Positions 26,387 through 59,338 of a stretch of DNA of 64,000 bases are shown here, in pieces. The notes beneath the pieces were generated by a model, which was not told the DNA's origin, did not search any database, and saw nothing but the letters and a program-made list of their open reading frames with translations. Each line of letters opens with the position of its first letter. Positions within the stretch are counted from its first letter, which is position 1. The stretch covers positions 124,001-188,000 of the forward strand of contig JAJGRE010000006.1 of assembly GCA_021083345.1 (NCBI GenBank), given 5' to 3'. The position numbers and the translations under genes were made by a program. The DNA comes from Calditrichales bacterium MX18-03 (lineage in GTDB: Bacteria > Bacillota > Clostridia > Lutisporales > Lutisporaceae).

Positions 26387-28345
26387 TTAGCATTCGCGGA
26401 TCCAAACAAGCATTTCACCAGGCTTTCGGTTAGCCCAGACATAGTAAGGTACTGCCTTTACGGCAGCAGGTACAGTGCCATACCCTGCCTTACTGTACAA
26501 CTTTCCTTCCCATTCTGACATATCTGTCCTTACTCCTGTCGTCTTAATGACGGTCACACCGCCGCAAAGGCTGCTGTCATACTCTGTTTCCAGACGGCAG
26601 TTCCCGGGAAGGCGAATATCAGCCAGCACCGGACCATTGTCGATCTCTTCAAGGCAATAGACTACCGGCCCTCTTTGAAGGGCAATCCTTCCTGCATTCC
26701 TGCGGACCTTGGGATTCGACTGAATCCTTTCAGCCGGCATCGGCATCGCCAGCTCGATCTTGTCTCCGCTTTGCCAGACCCGGCGGATCTCTGCATAGCC
26801 CTTTACTATAGCCGCATCCGGATCCACCAGTTTGCCATTCACCTTTATCGTTGCGCCGGAGCACCACCCCGGAATTCTCAAAGCAATCGTACAGTCCGTC
26901 GGCTCGTCAACCGCTGTGGTCAGTTTTATATTACCGTCCCACGGATAGTTTGACACCTGCTTCAACCGGAGCACCCTGCCGCCCAGATCGATTTTAGCCT
27001 CGCTTCCGATATAAAGATGCACATATAGCTTATCCCCGCTATGTGAGTAGACATATTTGCCTATTGAGGTGATCAGCCTGGCAATATTAGGCGGACAGCA
27101 GGCACAGCCGAACCACTTCTGCCGCTCCGGCTCCACATGCATCAGGTCATGGCGGTTCCTGCAGGCCTCCGGCCAGACCTCCAGCGGATTGACATAGAAA
27201 AAGCTTTTGCCGTCAAGAGACATCCCGCTGATGGTTCCATTGTACAACACCTTTTCCATGATGTCCGCATACTTGCTATCCGGGTCTATCCCAAACATCT
27301 GGCGTGCCCAGAATACCAATCCGATAGCGGCACAGGTCTCTGCATAGGCCGTATCGTTGGGCAGGTCATAATCAAAGGTAAAGTCCTCTCCGAACTCGGA
27401 CGAACCCACTGCACCGGTTATGTACATCCGGCGCTCCGTCACATTCTCCCACAATATCTTGCAGGCCTCCGACAAGGTTTTGTCCTGTGTCTCTGCAGCC
27501 AGTCCGGCCATAGCGGCATACATATACATGGCCCTTACCGCATGACCCACAGCCTTCTGCTGCTGTCTGACAGGCAGATGCGCCTGCATGTACTCGTAGC
27601 CGTTTTTCACCAGCTTGTAGTAAGGCTCCTGCAGTACGGTTTCCCATCCCAGCTTTTCCGCCCGCTTCTGCGCTTCCAGGTTAAAATAGTTGGGCTCCTG
27701 GCCCCGTTCATCTATAAAGTACTTGCTGAGTTTTAAATAGGACTCATTTCCTTTAGCCCGGTATAGCCTCAGCAAGGCAAGCTCGATTTCCTGATGTCCC
27801 GGATAGCCGTGGAGCTTCCCCTCTTCTCCGCCAAAAACGCTGTCAATATAATCAGCAAGCCGACATGCGATATCCAGCAGCTTCTCCTTGCCGGTGGCTT
27901 CATAATACGCCACTGCCGCTTCGATCAAGTGCCCGGCACAGTAAAGCTCATGCTTTGCCAGCTCGTTGGTCCAGCGGTCCTGCTGCTCCTTGACAATATA
28001 GTAGGTGTCCAGATAGCCGTCAGGCTGCTGCGCCTTTCCGATCAAATCAACAGCCTCATCGACTGTCCTTTCCAGCTCCGGGTCCGGGAAAGCAGCCAGC
28101 CTATAAGAAGCCGCCTCGATCCATTTATAAAGATCGGTGTCTTGAAAGGCATAGCCTTTAAAAGCCCCGGCCTCATCCCCTGCTGCAATCCTGAAATTTC
28201 GGATGCAATGGCTGGGTTCCGCCCCGTCCACGCGGTCATTCAGCGCTTCCCACTGATAGGGGATCACGACATCCTTGACCAGGTTTATATAGGTGGTCCA
28301 GAAGCCGTCGCTTATATGGATGTCCTTCAGCGGTATGTCCTTCAT
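26387..28345 (-). CDS. Glycoside hydrolase family 127 (beta-L-arabinofuranosidase-like)
   Basis: A 652-residue enzyme matching GH127 throughout. The key residues of the characterised HypBA1 enzyme can be placed: Glu320 in SSEFGEDF (acid/base), zinc ligands Glu336 and Cys338 in AYAETCAA, and the pair Cys416 (nucleophile) and Cys417 (zinc) in GCACCPPN. The family removes beta-L-arabinofuranosyl groups from hydroxyproline-rich plant glycans, though members differ in substrate. No signal peptide, so it acts on imported oligosaccharides. The start is the ATG after GAGAGGAAGGGG; an in-frame extension of 47 codons overlaps the promoter and is not coding. Confidence 0.92.
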   Translation of the reverse strand: MKDIPLKDIHISDGFWTTYINLVKDVVIPYQWEALNDRVDGAEPSHCIRNFRIAAGDEAGAFKGYAFQDTDLYKWIEAASYRLAAFPDPELERTVDEAVDLIGKAQQPDGYLDTYYIVKEQQDRWTNELAKHELYCAGHLIEAAVAYYEATGKEKLLDIACRLADYIDSVFGGEEGKLHGYPGHQEIELALLRLYRAKGNESYLKLSKYFIDERGQEPNYFNLEAQKRAEKLGWETVLQEPYYKLVKNGYEYMQAHLPVRQQQKAVGHAVRAMYMYAAMAGLAAETQDKTLSEACKILWENVTERRMYITGAVGSSEFGEDFTFDYDLPNDTAYAETCAAIGLVFWARQMFGIDPDSKYADIMEKVLYNGTISGMSLDGKSFFYVNPLEVWPEACRNRHDLMHVEPERQKWFGCACCPPNIARLITSIGKYVYSHSGDKLYVHLYIGSEAKIDLGGRVLRLKQVSNYPWDGNIKLTTAVDEPTDCTIALRIPGWCSGATIKVNGKLVDPDAAIVKGYAEIRRVWQSGDKIELAMPMPAERIQSNPKVRRNAGRIALQRGPVVYCLEEIDNGPVLADIRLPGNCRLETEYDSSLCGGVTVIKTTGVRTDMSEWEGKLYSKAGYGTVPAAVKAVPYYVWANRKPGEMLVWIREC

Positions 28346-28388
28346 TTTGTATACCCCTTCCTCTCCGGCCAATATAAAATCTGATTCT

Positions 28389-28417
28389 ACTTTAGTCGAT
28401 ATGGATGATTTTGTCAA
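28389..28417 (-). promoter_or_regulatory. Sigma-A promoter of the GH127 gene
   Basis: On the minus strand TTGACA, 17 bases, TAAAGT, ending 43 bases before the GH127 start codon. Confidence 0.65.
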
Positions 28418-28428
28418 ATGACAGGCAA

Positions 28429-29316
28429 TTATTTCAAGATATCTTTCGTTATCTCGATAAATGCTTTCAGGGCAGGCGAGATCCACTTATCCTTGTGCCA
28501 GGCAAGCTGCGTTACGATGGGAAAACGAGGCCCCTTCCAAGGCAGGACTGCAATCTGACCCCGTGCGATCTCTTTTGCTATGGCCATTTCCGGGAGGACG
28601 GCGATGCCCAGTCCCGCTATGACGCACTGCTTGATGCCTTCGATACTGGCAAATTCGATCTTGGTGCCGGTATGAACCCCATTGGAAGCCAGCATCTGCT
28701 CAAAAATCTGCCGGTAATTACAGCCTTGCTCGGTGGTCAGAATGGTCTCGCCGTTCAGGTCAGCAGGCAGGACCTGCGCTGCTTTGACCAGAGGGTGATC
28801 GGGATGGGCTATGACCAGGATCGGCTCTTCGATCAGCGGTTCGATGAGCAGCCCCTGCATATTGACCGGCGGGCTCAGCAGGAAAGCCGCATCCAGAAGG
28901 CCTTGGCCAATCAGCGCCCGTATGCATTCGTCCGATACGATAGGCCGAAATATCAGCTGCACCTGGGGATAGCACATACGGAACCGCTGCAGGACCTGGG
29001 TCAGACGGTAGGCACACTGGCTTTCATGGGCTCCGATTGTCAGGGTTCCCGACGGCATCTCACAGCCCGGTACCGTTTTTTTCATCTCCTCTAAACAGGC
29101 GATGATCTTTTCTGTAGCCAGAACCATCCTTTGCCCAGCCTCGGTAAGCACCACCTGCTTGCCCAAACGCTCAAAAAGCGGCATTCCGAACTCATCCTCC
29201 AGTGCCTGTATGTGCGCCGATACGCTGGACTGCGAATAGTTCAGCACACTGGCTGCTTTTGTAAAGCTGCGCTCTTTTGCAACCACGCGAAAGGTATAAA
29301 AGTACTTGAGCTCCAT
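28429..29316 (-). CDS. LysR family transcriptional regulator
   Basis: A 295-residue LysR-type regulator. The winged helix-turn-helix occupies residues 1-60 (FTKAASVLNYSQSSVSAHIQALEDEFG). The rest is the two-lobed periplasmic-binding-protein-like effector domain (TLTIGAHESQCAYRLTQVL). The start is the ATG eight bases after GGAGG; an ATG five codons upstream contains the ribosome site in its codons. It is divergent from gatE, with 230 bases between the starts, the classic arrangement for a LysR gene and its target, but it also reads toward GH127, so either could be regulated. Confidence 0.9.
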   Translation of the reverse strand: MELKYFYTFRVVAKERSFTKAASVLNYSQSSVSAHIQALEDEFGMPLFERLGKQVVLTEAGQRMVLATEKIIACLEEMKKTVPGCEMPSGTLTIGAHESQCAYRLTQVLQRFRMCYPQVQLIFRPIVSDECIRALIGQGLLDAAFLLSPPVNMQGLLIEPLIEEPILVIAHPDHPLVKAAQVLPADLNGETILTTEQGCNYRQIFEQMLASNGVHTGTKIEFASIEGIKQCVIAGLGIAVLPEMAIAKEIARGQIAVLPWKGPRFPIVTQLAWHKDKWISPALKAFIEITKDILK

Positions 29317-29447
29317 CCCATTAACCTCCATCGACTATACCGATTGTTTCTGCAGTTATCATCTATTATTCTAATTATATCATGCAGTCTGACGGCGGGA
29401 AATGTGGTGATGGTGAAAAACCGATTATTTGCATCATGATATCCGAT

Positions 29448-29476
29448 TTGACATGGCAGGGGGTTCATGTTATAAA
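29448..29476 (+). promoter_or_regulatory. Sigma-A promoter of gatE-gatD
   Basis: TTGACA at 29448, a 17-base spacer and TATAAA at 29471. It lies about 70 bases before the gatE start codon and rules out in-frame starts further upstream. Confidence 0.75.
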
Positions 29477-29546
29477 GTTGGTAAAACAGCATGAAGGACG
29501 GAATAGTGAGGCTTATGACTTATGGGAAGGGGAGGTTCTGTATTCT

Positions 29547-31526
29547 ATGAAACGAAACTTTGACCCAAAAACGAACTTCGAAGAAACCCGGATACGCATC
29601 GGCTATACCCCCCGCAAACAGACACTTCCGGAGGTCTACCACAATCTGGGCTTTATGTGCGGCTTGGAGGTCCATCAGCAGCTCAAAACGGACAAAAAGC
29701 TCTTTTGCCACTGCCCTGCCGGCGTCTTTCAGAAGGATGGCCGATATGACGCTGAAGTGGTCCGGCACATGAGGCCTACACTCAGCGAGATGGGTGGTTA
29801 TGACGGCACAGCCCTGATGGAGTTCAAAACAAAAAAGACCGTTATCTACCGCATCGCCAATGTGACCACGTGCACCTACGACGTAGACGACACCCCACCT
29901 TTCAAAATCAACCCCCAGGCGCTTGAAATCGCTATGGAAGTTGCCCTGCTCCTAAAAACCAACATCGTAGGCGAATTTCACATCACACGCAAGCAGTATC
30001 TGGACGGAAGCATTCCTACCGGTTTTCAAAGAACCGGCATCATCAGCATCGAGGGTCAAATCCCCCTGAAAAACAAGACGGTACGCATTATCCAGCTCAG
30101 CATAGAGGAAGATTCCTGCCGGGAGGTCTCGGACGTGGGGCATGTACGTGTCTACACCACCGACCGTCTGGGCATGCCGCTGATCGAGACCGTGACGTAT
30201 CCGGATATGAAAACGCCCGAAGAGTCGGCGGAAGCCGCCCACTACATCCGCTTCCTGTGCCGCAGTACCGGAAAGGTGCGCACAGGTATCGGCGCAGCCA
30301 GGGAGGATGTGAATGTGAGCATTCGTGGGGGCACCCGCGTGGAGATCAAGGGCGTGTCACGCATCCATCTGATTCCGGAGTTGGTTCACAATGAGGCATT
30401 TCGCCAGAAAAGCCTGCTGGAGATCCGGGATGCGCTGCTGGCTAAGATTCCTGATTGGGATGGCTGGAGAATACGCCATGCAATCCTTGATGCAGAAAAG
30501 CTCATTACGCTGTCCAGCCGGGCAAGGGAAGCCCTGGACAGAGAATATAGCCTTGCGGCAGTCAACTTGCCGGGCTTTCAAAGCCTCCTCTCATTTTTTA
30601 CCCAGCCGGGCCGTCCCTTTGCCGAAGAGATCAGCGACCGCCTGAAGGTCATTGCCTGCATTGAGAAACCCAATATGACACATTCTGAGGAATGGCGGGA
30701 GGCGTATCAGGGCGAGGACTGGCAAGCAATCCGTGAGGCACTGGGTGCAGCAGAAGGCGATGCCCAGATCCTGGTCTGGGGGCCTGAAGCGGATATCCCT
30801 ACTGCATTGGAAACCATCGAAGAACGCTGCCGGATGGCTTTTGCCGGTGTTCCCGGTGAAACCCGCAAGTCCTTTCAGGATGGTACCACCATGTTTGAAC
30901 GCGTCCTTCCGGGAGCCGACCGGATGTATCCCGATACCGACTCCGCACCGATCTCCATCAGCGAGGCTTTCATAGACCGCGTACGCAGCCGGCTGCCGGT
31001 AGAGGTTGACAAAAGAGTGGCACAACTCAAGAGCTGCAGCGTCCCTGAGGATACCTTCACTTATCTTCTGCGGTACAACCTGGTTCCACTGATTGAACGG
31101 ATTTCAATGGATTTTGAAGTGGAGCCCCGTTTTGTCGCCACGCTGCTAGCCCATCGGCTCAAGCCTCTCCAGGGCAAGCTGGAGCCGGATTCGCCCTTTA
31201 GCTTTGAACGGGTCTATGACCTTTTTGCCTTTATTCAGGCACAGAAGCTGCACCGTGATCTTATCTTTGAGCTGCTTCCCGTCATCTATCAGCATCCGCA
31301 GATGGATATGGAAGCGGCATTGGCTACTATCGGATATTCCCGCCATGACCATGTCAACGTCTCGTCCCTCATCCCGCTTCTGCGTGAGAAATTTGAGAAA
31401 ATCAGAATTTCCAAGGAAGAGGGTGCCGAAGTGCGCTGGATCATGGGGGCGCTGAAAAAAGCGGCTGTGGGCAGGATCCCGATGCGGGAGCTGGCCGATA
31501 TCATCCGGGAAGGGGGGACACGATGA
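29547..31526 (+). CDS. gatE: Glu-tRNA(Gln) amidotransferase subunit E (archaeal type)
   Basis: A 659-residue protein of the GatB/GatE family. MCGLEVHQQLKTDKKLFCHCP, RHMRPTLSEMGGYD, DVDDTPPF and RKQYLDGSIPTGFQRTG are the GatE (not GatB) forms of the kinase-domain motifs. The middle part carries the AspRS-like GAD insertion seen only in GatE (AGVPGETRKSFQDGTT ... PGADRMYPDTDSAP), and a YqeY-like tail ends the protein. GatE phosphorylates Glu-tRNA(Gln) and, with GatD, amidates it to Gln-tRNA(Gln). The pair is considered characteristic of Archaea. The start follows GGGGAGG and a promoter at 29448. It overlaps gatD by four bases (ATGA), in the order E-D. Base composition is GC-rich (62% in 30301-30360), unlike the flanks. 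A ~30-residue N-terminal extension precedes the usual start. Confidence 0.9.
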   Translation: MKRNFDPKTNFEETRIRIGYTPRKQTLPEVYHNLGFMCGLEVHQQLKTDKKLFCHCPAGVFQKDGRYDAEVVRHMRPTLSEMGGYDGTALMEFKTKKTVIYRIANVTTCTYDVDDTPPFKINPQALEIAMEVALLLKTNIVGEFHITRKQYLDGSIPTGFQRTGIISIEGQIPLKNKTVRIIQLSIEEDSCREVSDVGHVRVYTTDRLGMPLIETVTYPDMKTPEESAEAAHYIRFLCRSTGKVRTGIGAAREDVNVSIRGGTRVEIKGVSRIHLIPELVHNEAFRQKSLLEIRDALLAKIPDWDGWRIRHAILDAEKLITLSSRAREALDREYSLAAVNLPGFQSLLSFFTQPGRPFAEEISDRLKVIACIEKPNMTHSEEWREAYQGEDWQAIREALGAAEGDAQILVWGPEADIPTALETIEERCRMAFAGVPGETRKSFQDGTTMFERVLPGADRMYPDTDSAPISISEAFIDRVRSRLPVEVDKRVAQLKSCSVPEDTFTYLLRYNLVPLIERISMDFEVEPRFVATLLAHRLKPLQGKLEPDSPFSFERVYDLFAFIQAQKLHRDLIFELLPVIYQHPQMDMEAALATIGYSRHDHVNVSSLIPLLREKFEKIRISKEEGAEVRWIMGALKKAAVGRIPMRELADIIREGGTR

Positions 31527-32911
31527 TGAGCGATGCAACGTTGAAGGGTTACAAAGGCCGTGCGCTGGAGGTACTGAAGCGCTTCAGCATGCGGGTCTGG
31601 AGCGAAGCCGTGGTCAAGACCACCCGCGGCGACTTCAAGGGCGTCATCCTGCCCCGGGCTGAAAATGATGATGACCGGCACATCGTGCTGAAGCTGGCCA
31701 CCGGCTACAATATCGGCATCGAAGTGGATACCGTCCAGGATATGCAGGAAACCAATTTCAAGGAAATTCACTATAAAATACCGGAGCGGGAATTCCCCAC
31801 CTCCCCGGAAAAACGCAGCGTCAAGCTGCTGGGCACCGGCGGCACCATCGCCTCCCGGCTGGATTACCGCACGGGTGCGGTTATCCCGGCCTTTTCACCG
31901 GGAGAGCTATACGGTGCGGTGCCTGAGCTGGCCGATATCTGCAACCTCAGCACCGAGAAGCTTTTTGCCGTCTTCTCCGAGAACATGGGCCCGGAGCAGT
32001 ATAAAGTGCTGGCCCAGGCCATCGGAGAAGAGATCAAAAAGGGCACTCACGGCATCGTCATCGGCCACGGCACCGACACCATGCACCATACCGCCGCTGC
32101 GCTGACCTTCATGGTGCAGAACTCGCCCATCCCTATCGTCATGGTGGGCTCCCAGCGCTCTTCGGACCGGCCGTCCTCCGACGCGGCCCTCAATTTGATC
32201 CATGCCACCAAGACCGCTGCCGAGTCGGACATCGCGGAGGTCATGGTATGCATGTTCGGGCCCACATCCGATGAGTACGGCCTGCTGCATCGCGGCACCC
32301 GGGTGCGCAAGATGCACTCCTCCTACCGCTCCACCTTCCGCACCATCGGGGATATCCCCCTGGCGATGGTTAACCGCCGGGAGATCACACCCCTGCGGCA
32401 GGATTACAACCGGCGGCGGGACGACCGCAATGTGACGGTTACGCCGGTATTTGAAGAGCGGGTAACGATCCTGTACTACTACCCCAACATGAACCCCGAT
32501 ATCATCGACGCCATGGTGGACCTGGGCTACAAAGGGATCGTCATAGCCGGCACCGGCCTGGGACACGTCAACAAGCTGGTGTACCCCGCCATCAAGCGCG
32601 CCGTAGCAAAGGGCGTTGCCATCTACATGACGGTGCAGACCTTGTGGGGCTATGTCCACATGTTTGTGTACGACACCGGCCGGGATCTGATGAATATGGG
32701 CATCATCCCTGCAGAGAACATGCTGCCGGAGGTTGCCTACATCAAGCTGGGCTGGGCATTGGGACAGACCTCGGACCTGGACAAGGTCAAGGAGATCATG
32801 CTGACCCCCGTCAACGGCGAGATCACCGAGCGGGAACCTTACAACGGCTACCTGGTCTACCAGGGCGGCATTCCCGAAGTAGAGGAGTTTATCAAGACTT
32901 TCCATAAGTAA
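31523..32911 (+). CDS. gatD: Glu-tRNA(Gln) amidotransferase subunit D (archaeal type)
   Basis: A 462-residue protein. Residues ~20-75 form the small SH3-like domain peculiar to GatD (VVKTTRGDFKGVILPR ... HIVLKLATGYNIGIEVD). Residues 95-460 form an L-asparaginase fold with the catalytic Thr108 in LGTGGTIAS and Thr184-Asp185 in GHGTDTM; a downstream Lys in HATKTAA can complete the site. GatD frees ammonia from Gln or Asn and channels it to GatE. The N-terminal domain and full length separate it from the plain asparaginase at 57939. Very GC-rich (68% in 32041-32100). The start overlaps the gatE stop, so translation is coupled. Confidence 0.92.
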   Translation: MMSDATLKGYKGRALEVLKRFSMRVWSEAVVKTTRGDFKGVILPRAENDDDRHIVLKLATGYNIGIEVDTVQDMQETNFKEIHYKIPEREFPTSPEKRSVKLLGTGGTIASRLDYRTGAVIPAFSPGELYGAVPELADICNLSTEKLFAVFSENMGPEQYKVLAQAIGEEIKKGTHGIVIGHGTDTMHHTAAALTFMVQNSPIPIVMVGSQRSSDRPSSDAALNLIHATKTAAESDIAEVMVCMFGPTSDEYGLLHRGTRVRKMHSSYRSTFRTIGDIPLAMVNRREITPLRQDYNRRRDDRNVTVTPVFEERVTILYYYPNMNPDIIDAMVDLGYKGIVIAGTGLGHVNKLVYPAIKRAVAKGVAIYMTVQTLWGYVHMFVYDTGRDLMNMGIIPAENMLPEVAYIKLGWALGQTSDLDKVKEIMLTPVNGEITEREPYNGYLVYQGGIPEVEEFIKTFHK

Positions 32912-32914
32912 TGA

Positions 32915-32953
32915 AGAACCGGACGCAGCATCACGCTTCGCCCGGTTCTTTTC
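32915..32953 (+). terminator. Terminator after gatD
   Basis: AGAACCGG pairs with CCGGTTCT, followed by TTTCT. It also lies between convergent genes. Confidence 0.7.
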
Positions 32954-32959
32954 TATTGC

Positions 32960-33853
32960 TCATTGTGTATCGTTATCCAGTAAATAATCCTTTACACCCT
33001 TCCATAAATATCCCTTCGCCAGGGATTCAACCTCTGCAGGTCCCACGCCGGATGTACGCCCTTCAAAATCTCTCAGATCGTATCCGCTTTTCACAACGAT
33101 GAATTTTGCGGTGCCCGGTGCCAAAGCCTTGTTGGGGCATCCATAGATGCACTTGAGGCATAGCAGGCATTCTCCGCCAAAAACAGGCCTGTCGTCTTTT
33201 AGCCGGATATTGCCGCCGGGGCAGCTCCTTTCGCACCAGCCGCAGCCGTTGCAGGCTTCGTTGACCTTTATTTTCCGCCCGAACATGCGGCCTCCCGATT
33301 TCTCCAGCTCGCCTATCCAAGAGAAAACGCGGTCTATCCATACAGGCTTGGTCCGATGCCTTTTCCCTGTCAGAAGCGCGCCAACCGCCTGCTCCACCTT
33401 GACCGGCAGCACTTCCAGCAGCCTGACTGCCAAGGGTTCTACTGTCGGCACGATCCAGTTGGACGGCATCACCAACATCCTTTCATAGACCACTTCGTAC
33501 CCCTTTTTCTCCAGCATGCGGATGCAGCTTACCCGGCAGGCCGTGTTCGGCGGAATCTCGCCGCCGCCTGAAACAGAAATGACCGCCGCCGGCATCCCCT
33601 TCACCTTCTGAAGGGAGCTGATCCATTCATAAACCGGCTCCGGCGCGTTGCAGGCATGGACAGCATACAAGACCACCAGAAGGTCTTCTTTTCCCTCCGA
33701 AGGCCTTTGTCCTCTCCTCAGTTGGCATTTTGCAACTGCAACACCATGTGCTTCAAAGACCTTTTCAAAGCAATCCGCTGCTTTTGCTGTACCGCCTGTC
33801 CCGGAAAAGTAGACCATCTTTACTTGCTTAATCGCTTTTCCCTTGCTGTCCAT
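32960..33853 (-). CDS. EFR1 family protein (flavodoxin-like domain plus two 4Fe-4S clusters)
   Basis: A 297-residue redox protein. The N-terminal ~170 residues are flavodoxin-like, with the FMN phosphate loop FSGTGGTAK. The C-terminal part carries two ferredoxin motifs: CNGCGWCERSCP and CLLCLKCIYGCP. This architecture is the EFR1 family, common in anaerobic Firmicutes and involved in electron transfer with unknown partners. GGGGG lies eight bases before the ATG. It is 40 bases downstream of the DegV-like gene, probably in the same operon. Confidence 0.9.
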   Translation of the reverse strand: MDSKGKAIKQVKMVYFSGTGGTAKAADCFEKVFEAHGVAVAKCQLRRGQRPSEGKEDLLVVLYAVHACNAPEPVYEWISSLQKVKGMPAAVISVSGGGEIPPNTACRVSCIRMLEKKGYEVVYERMLVMPSNWIVPTVEPLAVRLLEVLPVKVEQAVGALLTGKRHRTKPVWIDRVFSWIGELEKSGGRMFGRKIKVNEACNGCGWCERSCPGGNIRLKDDRPVFGGECLLCLKCIYGCPNKALAPGTAKFIVVKSGYDLRDFEGRTSGVGPAEVESLAKGYLWKGVKDYLLDNDTQ

Positions 33854-33893
33854 TTTCTCAACCCCCTATGCATTGACCTGGGCGCAACATGCT

Positions 33894-34757
33894 TTATCTC
33901 ATATCCCTTTGGGTATAGTAAGCGATGGCTACCGTTCCGGGGCCTACATGCAGCCCGATGACCGGTCCGATATCCGCTATCCCGATGTTGACCCTCAGCA
34001 TTTCTTTTATCTTGCTTGCCAGCTCCTTCGCTTCGTCCAGACAGTTGATATGCTGCACGACCACTTCACCCAGGCCGCAGTTGTCGATGTCCTGCTGCAT
34101 CCTCTCAATCATGGCCGATACAGCGTTTTTCTTCGTTCTGACCTTAGACAGCACCGCGGTCTTGCCGTTCTCCACCGTCAGGATCGGGATGATCTTGAAG
34201 ATCGTTCCAAGCAATGCGCTGGCACCGCCGATCCTGCCGCCTTTTTTCAGATACTCCAGGGTGTCCGGTATGAAAAGGAACCGGCTTCTATTTATGTTTT
34301 CCTGTGCCGCCGCTTTTACTTGCTCCAGTGTCTTTCCCTCTTTCGCCGCCCGTGCAGCCTGGATGACGGCAAAACCCAGCTGCATACAGTTGGACTTACT
34401 GTCCACGATCTCGATCTGCGCCGCTTCATGCTTTTCCAATACCATATCCCTTGCCATCCGGGCAGTCGATAGGGTTCCGCTCATTTCTGCGGAAATGAAG
34501 ATACCGCAAAGACTGTCTCCAGACTCAACGATGTGCAGCATTTCGTGATACAGCTCGCCTATGGCAGGTTGTGAGGATGTGGGGATGCCTCTCTCGGCCA
34601 TCATCTGATAGAAACTGCCGTTGTCGATATCCATCTCCCTCATGCTGTCATTGCCAAAGGATAGGTTCAATGAAACCATACTGATGTCCAGCTCTTTCCG
34701 GGTCTCCTCGCCCAAATAGCTGGTGCTGTCCGTTAAAACCCTAACTGCCATCTCCAT
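33894..34757 (-). CDS. DegV family fatty acid-binding protein
   Basis: A 287-residue protein with the DegV opening VRVLTDSTSYL, the lipid-contacting segments GIPTSSQPAIGE and GIFISAEMSGTLSTA, and the C-terminal IGPVIGLHVGPGTVAIAYY. In Gram-positive bacteria some DegV proteins (FakB) present fatty acids to the FakA kinase; no fakA is in the window. The exact start (first or third codon, both ATG) is uncertain because the upstream site is a weak AGAGAGAGA. Confidence 0.9.
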   Translation of the reverse strand: MEMAVRVLTDSTSYLGEETRKELDISMVSLNLSFGNDSMREMDIDNGSFYQMMAERGIPTSSQPAIGELYHEMLHIVESGDSLCGIFISAEMSGTLSTARMARDMVLEKHEAAQIEIVDSKSNCMQLGFAVIQAARAAKEGKTLEQVKAAAQENINRSRFLFIPDTLEYLKKGGRIGGASALLGTIFKIIPILTVENGKTAVLSKVRTKKNAVSAMIERMQQDIDNCGLGEVVVQHINCLDEAKELASKIKEMLRVNIGIADIGPVIGLHVGPGTVAIAYYTQRDMR

Positions 34758-57938: not shown

Positions 57939-58922
57939 TCAATAGTAGTTTTTCTCAAAGATGTCCTTGATTTGTGACAGGTCTTTAGTGAGTCCCAATG
58001 CCACCATCAGCTTGATCCTGGCCTTCTGCCCCGGAAGGTTGTCCCCAAGGATTACGCCCCTTGCGGTCAGCTCTCTGCCGGCCCCTTCATAGCCATAGTC
58101 ATCCAGCACCTTACCGGCAAGACATCTGGAAACCAGCACGACCGGAATTCCCTTATTGAGTGCATAATCCACACCCGGAACCATTTTGGGAGGGATATTA
58201 CCCCTTCCCATGCCCTCAATGACGATGCCGTGGGCACCGGAGTCCACACAGAAACGGAGAAGGCGGTCATCCATCCCGCAGCCACATTTGATAAGGTCTA
58301 CGCTGCTGTCGGCATCTTGTGCAGGAAGGTGCTGCCTTTTGGTATAACTGTAGTAAAAATATACTTTATTGTTGTCGACAAAGCCGATAGGTCCGAAGTC
58401 CATGCTCTTGAAAGTATCCAGCGTATGTGTGTTGGTCTTGGTTACCTGTGAAGCCGAGTGGACCTCGTTGTTCATAACAACCAGCACACCTCTGTTGCAG
58501 GCTTCATCAGATATGGCCGTATGGACGGCATCAATCAGGTTGACAGGCCCGTCCCATCCCAGCTCCGAGCTGTTTTTCATGGAGCCTACGAAGATAACCG
58601 GCTTGGAACCGCCGTAGGTCAAGTCTACAAAGTATGCCGTCTCCTCAAGGGAGTCCGTTCCGTGGGTCACGACCACGCCGTCAAAGCCATCCTGCTCCAC
58701 TTTTTTCCTGATCAATCCGGAAAGCTCTTGCATCTTCTCGGGCGTCATGTGTGGACCCGGCATCATGCCAAAATCCAAAAAATGTATATCTGCGATTCTC
58801 TCAATTCCCGGAGTAAGCCTCAATATCTCCTCTCCGCTCATTGCCGGCACCGCTGCGTTTGTTTCCTTGTCTGCCTTCATGGAGATCGTTCCGCCGGTAA
58901 ATATTAATATGATTTTTTTCAT
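57939..58922 (-). CDS. ansA: L-asparaginase
   Basis: A 327-residue cytoplasmic asparaginase. The two catalytic threonines are in IFTGGTISM (residue ~10) and VVTHGTDSLEETA (Thr-Asp pair near 86); FVGSMKNSSELGWDG and NEVHSA follow the family pattern. It hydrolyses asparagine to aspartate and ammonia. No signal peptide. It starts at the ATG seven bases after GGAAAGGAAG. With the Lrp regulator and AsdA downstream it forms an Asn-Asp-Ala module. It lacks the SH3-like N-domain of GatD. Confidence 0.92.
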   Translation of the reverse strand: MKKIILIFTGGTISMKADKETNAAVPAMSGEEILRLTPGIERIADIHFLDFGMMPGPHMTPEKMQELSGLIRKKVEQDGFDGVVVTHGTDSLEETAYFVDLTYGGSKPVIFVGSMKNSSELGWDGPVNLIDAVHTAISDEACNRGVLVVMNNEVHSASQVTKTNTHTLDTFKSMDFGPIGFVDNNKVYFYYSYTKRQHLPAQDADSSVDLIKCGCGMDDRLLRFCVDSGAHGIVIEGMGRGNIPPKMVPGVDYALNKGIPVVLVSRCLAGKVLDDYGYEGAGRELTARGVILGDNLPGQKARIKLMVALGLTKDLSQIKDIFEKNYY

Positions 58923-59338
58923 TATGCTGCTTCCTTTCCTGAATCTAAGTATTCCCATCGTATCATCATGCTTTTGGAGTGTACATGCATTAAGAAATGA
59001 TAAGGAGTCGATTCTCCTAATTAATATAGCCATTTTCAGAAATTATCATATTTCGATAGGTGGTATTGCGATTTTTAAGCATTTTGTAAAGTTATAGTAA
59101 TTGGAATTTGCTTTGCCTTGCCTATTTCTGAGTATTCCATAAGCAGCTGCAAATTCCGACTCTATTTCTCAGATACTCCGCAGCCAGGAGTATGATTCTA
59201 AAAAGTAAGATAATGCTTCATATGTTGTGGTATAATTAACCTAAAGCTGCTAAGCAGAGAAGTAAAATATGATTTTTGATACGTTGGCTAAGTAATATCT
59301 TATTGAAATCAAGCTATCAAGAGAGGGAACAAAATACT
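58923..59338. other. Intergenic region between asparaginase and GNAT genes
   Basis: No credible ORF. It contains an imperfect direct repeat, CTATTTCTGAGTATTCC and CTATTTCTCAGATACTCC (about 59121 and 59160), and an extended -10 promoter TGGTATAAT ending at 59236 that can serve the plus-strand GNAT gene. Confidence 0.4.

Follow-up and report, generated by a model that had tools for sequence, protein, structure and literature searches.

Reviews describe the tRNA-dependent amidotransferase GatDE as exclusively archaeal (PMC9499178, PMC8007984). Archaea lack GlnRS and their GatDE reportedly reads A1:U72 (PMC9499178), while the helical/tail part of archaeal GatE contacts the tRNA elbow (PMC4810234). 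In bacteria, a survey found GlnRS in 254 of 547 genera (46%) and knows of no bacterium with both routes to Gln-tRNA (PMC4206432). Deinococcus, Thermus and Bdellovibrio carry a surplus amidotransferase beside direct synthetases, but this enzyme is GatCAB and supplies Asn (PMC4206432). A further survey reports GlnRS as almost general in Bacteroidota and infers a discriminating GluRS from the presence of GlnRS and the absence of gatCAB; GatDE stands outside its classification (PMC3927822).

Here we describe a gatE–gatD pair in a clostridial genome. The pair is a true GatDE by family, fold and active-site residues. It lies in a window of 64,000 nucleotides, the whole stretch of DNA that was analysed, with the following features:

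28429 to 29331, minus strand: LysR-type regulator, divergent, upstream of gatE, with Pfam LysR domains.
29527 to 29535, plus strand: probable ribosome-binding site AAGGGGAGG of gatE, 11 bases before the ATG at 29547, read in the sequence.
29547 to 31526, plus strand: gatE, 659 amino acids, with the GatB/GatE cradle, a GAD-like insertion and a helical/tail part; over the TIGR00134 and NF003107 cut-offs.
29547 to 29636, plus strand: N-terminal extension of GatE, about 30 residues, common to the bacterial clade in the alignment and absent from the sequences of two archaeal structures.
30528 to 30800, plus strand: GAD-like insertion of GatE, at 21.0 bits just under the Pfam GAD cut-off.
30957 to 31523, plus strand: helical and tail part of GatE, all-helical in the AlphaFold model, corresponding to the part which binds the tRNA elbow in archaeal GatDE.
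31523 to 32911, plus strand: gatD, 462 amino acids, with GatD_N and an asparaginase-type glutaminase; over the TIGR02153 and NF003217 cut-offs.
32855 to 32908, plus strand: C-terminal extension of GatD, about 18 residues, conserved in the bacterial clade; archaeal GatD proteins stop before it.

The longest open reading frame at the gatE site spans 29382 to 31526 on the plus strand. A start at 29547, as given by the sequence-only reading, is supported since bacterial GatE homologues align from the residue encoded there and AAGGGGAGG lies 11 bases upstream. The 4-base overlap which it described is real, the gatD start lying on the gatE stop (31523 to 31526), and so is the N-terminal extension of GatE, which proved common to the bacterial clade. 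Directly downstream of gatD, an EFR1-family ferredoxin gene (32960 to 33853, minus strand) is found in convergent orientation.

Both proteins exceed the cut-offs of curated equivalog models. GatE scores 437 bits against TIGR00134 (cut-off 320) and 487 against NF003107 (456), and GatD scores 518 bits against TIGR02153 (324) and 514 against NF003217 (310). The GatE profiles matched over their full length. Pfam recognizes GatB_N, GatD_N (47.0 bits, cut-off 25.7), Asparaginase and Asparaginase_C in the pair; the GAD insertion proposed earlier is seen in GatE, but its Pfam score stays below threshold (21.0 bits, cut-off 23.4). Among relatives with solved structures, the GatDE enzymes of Methanothermobacter (2d6f) and Pyrococcus (1zq1) rank best, with phmmer E-values of 7e-101 for GatE against Methanothermobacter GatE and 3e-119 for GatD against Pyrococcus GatD. 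The AlphaFold model of GatE (pLDDT 84) retains the helical/tail part and finds the GatE subunits of 2d6f and 1zq1 ahead of GatB as its top PDB matches. For the GatD model (pLDDT 78), archaeal GatD is the best match.

Active-site residues are kept throughout. The GatE motifs GLE-H, EED, R-D-N and E-K, which GatB and archaeal GatE also carry, show no variation in 55/55 sequences, with E41, H43, E187, E188, D189, D254, N256, E266 and K268 as invariant residues. In GatD, T105 and the asparaginase-type catalytic residues T108, Y115, T184, D185 and K263 are invariant among 52 sequences. The GatE and GatD signatures noticed in the sequence-only reading are thus borne out by equivalog scores, active-site residues and models which match the archaeal subunits.

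Two other identities were considered and rejected. The cradle and active-site motifs of GatE also occur in GatB of bacterial GatCAB, but GatB models give only 132 bits (cut-off 338) and 119 bits (cut-off 315), no GatA-type amidase or GatC accompanies the pair, and gatCAB lies elsewhere in the genome. GatD shares fold and catalytic residues with L-asparaginases (type I/II) and also passes the type I model TIGR00519 (386 bits, cut-off 260), but GatD models score higher, the GatD_N domain is present and the tree, with one asparaginase as outgroup, places it with GatD. The trees thus place the pair outside both GatB and the plain asparaginases; nesting there would have spoken against the original assignment. 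A second asparaginase-fold gene in the window (57945 to 58931, minus strand) is a plain asparaginase, under all full-protein cut-offs including those of GatD; it shares no more than 29% identity with any GatD of the tree and has no adjacent gatE.

A GatE-core query run against GTDB genomes yielded at least 588 stretches, at least 568 of which encode relatives, and the best 80 were kept. All of these best 80 loci are bacterial; in the query, archaeal rows had been given the window's residues at selected motifs, which favours the window's relatives over archaea. Most belong to Bacteroidota, the others including Aminicenantes, Zixibacteria, Cloacimonadota, an Acidobacteria bin, Calditrichota, Neomarinimicrobiota and two Clostridiaceae, namely Oceanirhabdus (complete chromosome) and Clostridium tagluense. 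Four of the best 80 loci are uninformative about linkage, their contigs ending after gatE. At 71 of the remaining 76, gatD lies just downstream of gatE, mostly with gaps of −3 to 500 bases, whereas at five Bacteroidota loci (L145, L156, L162, L165, L194) other genes follow gatE and gatD is unlinked or missing.

Identity to the window's proteins is 54–70% for GatE and 70–87% for GatD within the bacterial clade; in archaea it is only 32–37% and about 46%, although both subunits, the domain make-up, the active-site residues and the fold are the same as in 2d6f and 1zq1. In the GatE tree, the sampled bacterial sequences fall on one side of a supported branch (99/98) and GatB and the three archaeal sequences on the other. 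Bacterial GatD sequences likewise stand apart (SH-aLRT 99). The window's GatD groups with the two Clostridiaceae copies (support 97), and its GatE with these and the Neomarinimicrobiota copies (97/97). The phylogeny suggested by the sequence-only reading therefore separates a bacterial clade from archaea, with archaeal sampling for the deeper origin of the clade thin at three GatE sequences. Two copies labelled Aminicenantes deviate, by transfer or binning error: L126 has a long GatD branch and an ordinary GatE, and L164 groups with Bacteroidota copies.

Further traits set the bacterial proteins apart from the archaeal ones, besides the adjacency of the genes in the order E-D. In the N-terminal extension of GatE, N10, G19 and Y20 are at least 90% conserved, and the alignment with archaeal sequences begins only at residue 31; in the C-terminal extension of GatD, Y443, Q447 and F456 are conserved. 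Cysteines 54, 56, 109, 191 and 371 of GatE are invariant across the clade, and archaeal sequences lack some of them. The mean majority frequency in GatE falls from 0.85–0.92 (cradle) through 0.68 (GAD region) to its lowest value, 0.55, in the helical/tail part. GatD is unusually conserved because GlnRS identity is only 59–66% for the same genome pairs in which GatD reaches 70–87%; from this comparison the L134 pair was discarded, an antisense reading frame having been taken.

The surroundings of the pair vary. Among the best 80 of at least 568 loci, no conserved neighbour besides gatD was found: large clusters proved to be antisense reading frames and none of the rest occurred at more than 17 loci. 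A connection with Asn/Asp/Cys catabolism, as envisaged in the sequence-only reading, is unsupported because the neighbouring genes are not conserved at related loci. The divergent LysR-type gene is a possible local regulator of the pair; no LysR cluster was found among related loci. At 50 loci, the only tRNA genes near gatDE were those for Leu and Gly, at one contig end.

Near home, the pair is rare. In partly overlapping samples of 61 relatives, 391 class genomes, 399 phylum genomes and 22 family genomes, only the host's own genome carries a GatE over the cut-off, in agreement with the earlier remark that the pair is unusual for Clostridia. The plasmid collection holds no GatDE pair, its matches being GatB, asparaginases and one halophile GatE piece, and no GatDE was found in the viral contigs searched. 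A recent direct transfer of the archaeal Gln-tRNA pathway into this clostridium would account for the absence of GatE from the 21 other family genomes, which calls for a gain or for wide loss nearby. It is nevertheless very improbable, as the nearest relatives are bacterial (67–70% for GatE, 87% for GatD) and a supported branch separates their clade from archaea. The direct archaeal origin raised by the sequence-only reading is accordingly unsupported, and transfer of a complete pathway need not be invoked, since the host and every one of the 50 GatDE genomes tested have GlnRS. The assembly's contamination estimate of 3.35% and the local GC richness of the pair could point to contamination or a misassembled contig. 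The stretch from 28001 to 34000 has the highest GC content of the window (0.565, elsewhere 0.37–0.54), with 81% GC at the third codon positions of gatD; this richness is compatible with acquired DNA. However, the pair lies inside a 265-kb contig, and Clostridium tagluense and the complete Oceanirhabdus chromosome carry the same pair, which leaves an artefact scarcely credible. The simplest reading of the sequence comparisons is gene movement between bacteria, and not a fresh archaeal gift.

The host has other means of making Gln-tRNA and Asn-tRNA. The genome checks proposed earlier recovered both a full-length GlnRS (757 bits) and, in a separate operon elsewhere, gatCAB, with GatB and GatA over their cut-offs and GatC also present. 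The operon (L270; contig C7, 1645500–1652500) has the order ND-AspRS-gatC-gatA-gatB. Its AspRS is of the non-discriminating type (aspartate--tRNA(Asn) ligase, 575 bits against 353), and since it directly adjoins gatCAB upstream, host GatCAB looks like an Asn route. With AsnRS (642 bits), Asn-tRNA would have two sources in the host apart from GatDE. The demands that tRNA amidation usually serves are thus already covered. In this respect the host resembles Deinococcus, Thermus and Bdellovibrio, but its GatDE is a second, different amidotransferase.

The same holds across the clade for GlnRS, which was found in 50/50 tested GatDE genomes (48 over the cut-off, two as fragments). AsnRS is over the cut-off in 46/50, a set including the host's own genome, and in fragments in two more. 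GatB exceeds its cut-off in only five of the 50 (L127, L171, L174, L189 and L197, four labelled Zixibacteria/GN15 and one Bacteroidetes). While 33 of the 50 carriers are labelled Bacteroidota, GlnRS is also present in 17/17 of the others; against the surveyed 46%, the naive probability of this is 2e-6, a figure which is indicative only, given shared ancestry and sampling by similarity. In no tested bacterial carrier is GatDE the only visible way to Gln-tRNA, in contrast to archaea. The absence of GlnRS is a habit of archaeal GatDE members, not a trait of the enzyme as such.

Two tRNA-Gln genes were found in the host, with anticodons TTG (TGGGGTGTCGCCAAGC...; L224:1244-1318) and CTG (TCCCGGTTTGTGTAACGG...; L241:92-165), both on contig C7 and both U1:A72. 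Their sequences are very unlike, and comparison with plasmids gave distant matches only. The two genes may differ in origin, and perhaps also in the enzyme that charges their products. One Zixibacteria carrier has a single tRNA-Gln among 21 tRNA genes read. At the GluRS position matching T. thermophilus Arg358, 24/25 GatDE genomes have Arg, as does Borrelia GluRS. The GluRS of the host and of C. tagluense (L201, L202) is a long form, with open frames of 591 and 557 codons compared with mostly about 480–520, and its extra residues lie near the anticodon-binding position.

What, then, might the enzyme do? From the sequence evidence, we regard as evenly poised the proposal that it acts as a tRNA-dependent amidotransferase which repairs or backs up Glu-tRNA(Gln). 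GatD would hydrolyze glutamine and hand the ammonia to GatE, which with ATP would activate the side-chain carboxylate of misacylated Glu-tRNA for amidation. Glu-tRNA(Gln) made in error by GluRS or GlnRS would thereby be turned into the correct product. The role would be auxiliary, as quality control or back-up amidation, because a host with GlnRS and with gatCAB in an operon with ND-AspRS should not depend on GatDE as its main source of Gln-tRNA(Gln). This reaction in the host, its substrate and the repair role are the most likely assignments. They are favoured by family and fold, the invariant catalytic residues, the strong purifying conservation of GatD across phyla and the retained helical/tail part, as well as by the pair's persistence at 71/76 loci, GlnRS in 50/50 and GatB in only 5/50 genomes, and the host's ND-AspRS-gatCAB and AsnRS. 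Several observations count against repair: the helical/tail part is the least conserved, the host tRNA-Gln genes have U1:A72 instead of the A1:U72 read by archaeal GatDE, and gatD is unlinked or missing at the five Bacteroidota loci. The GluRS Arg in 24/25 genomes would fit little Glu-tRNA(Gln) being made, with the limit that Borrelia also has Arg.

The weak conservation of the elbow-binding part would also suit a changed substrate, either another aminoacyl-tRNA or a non-tRNA carboxylate, amidated through an unchanged ammonia relay; recruitment for another amidation was also an alternative of the sequence-only reading. Since nearly all carriers can form Gln-tRNA and Asn-tRNA directly, the classical substrate is dispensable, and the clade-specific extensions on both subunits and the invariant GatE cysteines leave room for a new one. 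Yet all GatE domains are kept, including the GAD-like region and the helical tail, both proteins still exceed the GatD/GatE equivalog cut-offs, and no conserved neighbour indicates another pathway; a new substrate is possible, if doubtful. It is improbable that, as in archaea, one or more tRNA-Gln depend mainly on GatDE while GlnRS charges the other isoacceptor or is not required. The two very unlike host tRNA-Gln might indeed be charged differently, but GlnRS is full-length in the host and present in every tested carrier, 45/50 carriers lack GatB and the Zixibacteria carrier showed only one tRNA-Gln among the tRNA genes read.

Since 55/55 aligned GatE sequences match the NCBIfam GatE models, annotation pipelines probably name such genes GatE already, and single records may exist unnoticed. 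The inference of discriminating GluRS needs re-examination in these phyla because GatDE lies outside the classification on which it was based (PMC3927822). Quite possibly, though we propose it tentatively, the multi-phylum bacterial GatDE branch is a translation quality-control enzyme, or one with a new substrate, in GlnRS-bearing cells. If so, its carriers would be the first bacteria recognized with both the direct and the amidation route to Gln-tRNA, or would hold a GatDE with a changed task. Should bacterial GatDE repair Glu-tRNA(Gln), amidation would be a form of proofreading; otherwise the GatDE family would have a further substrate.
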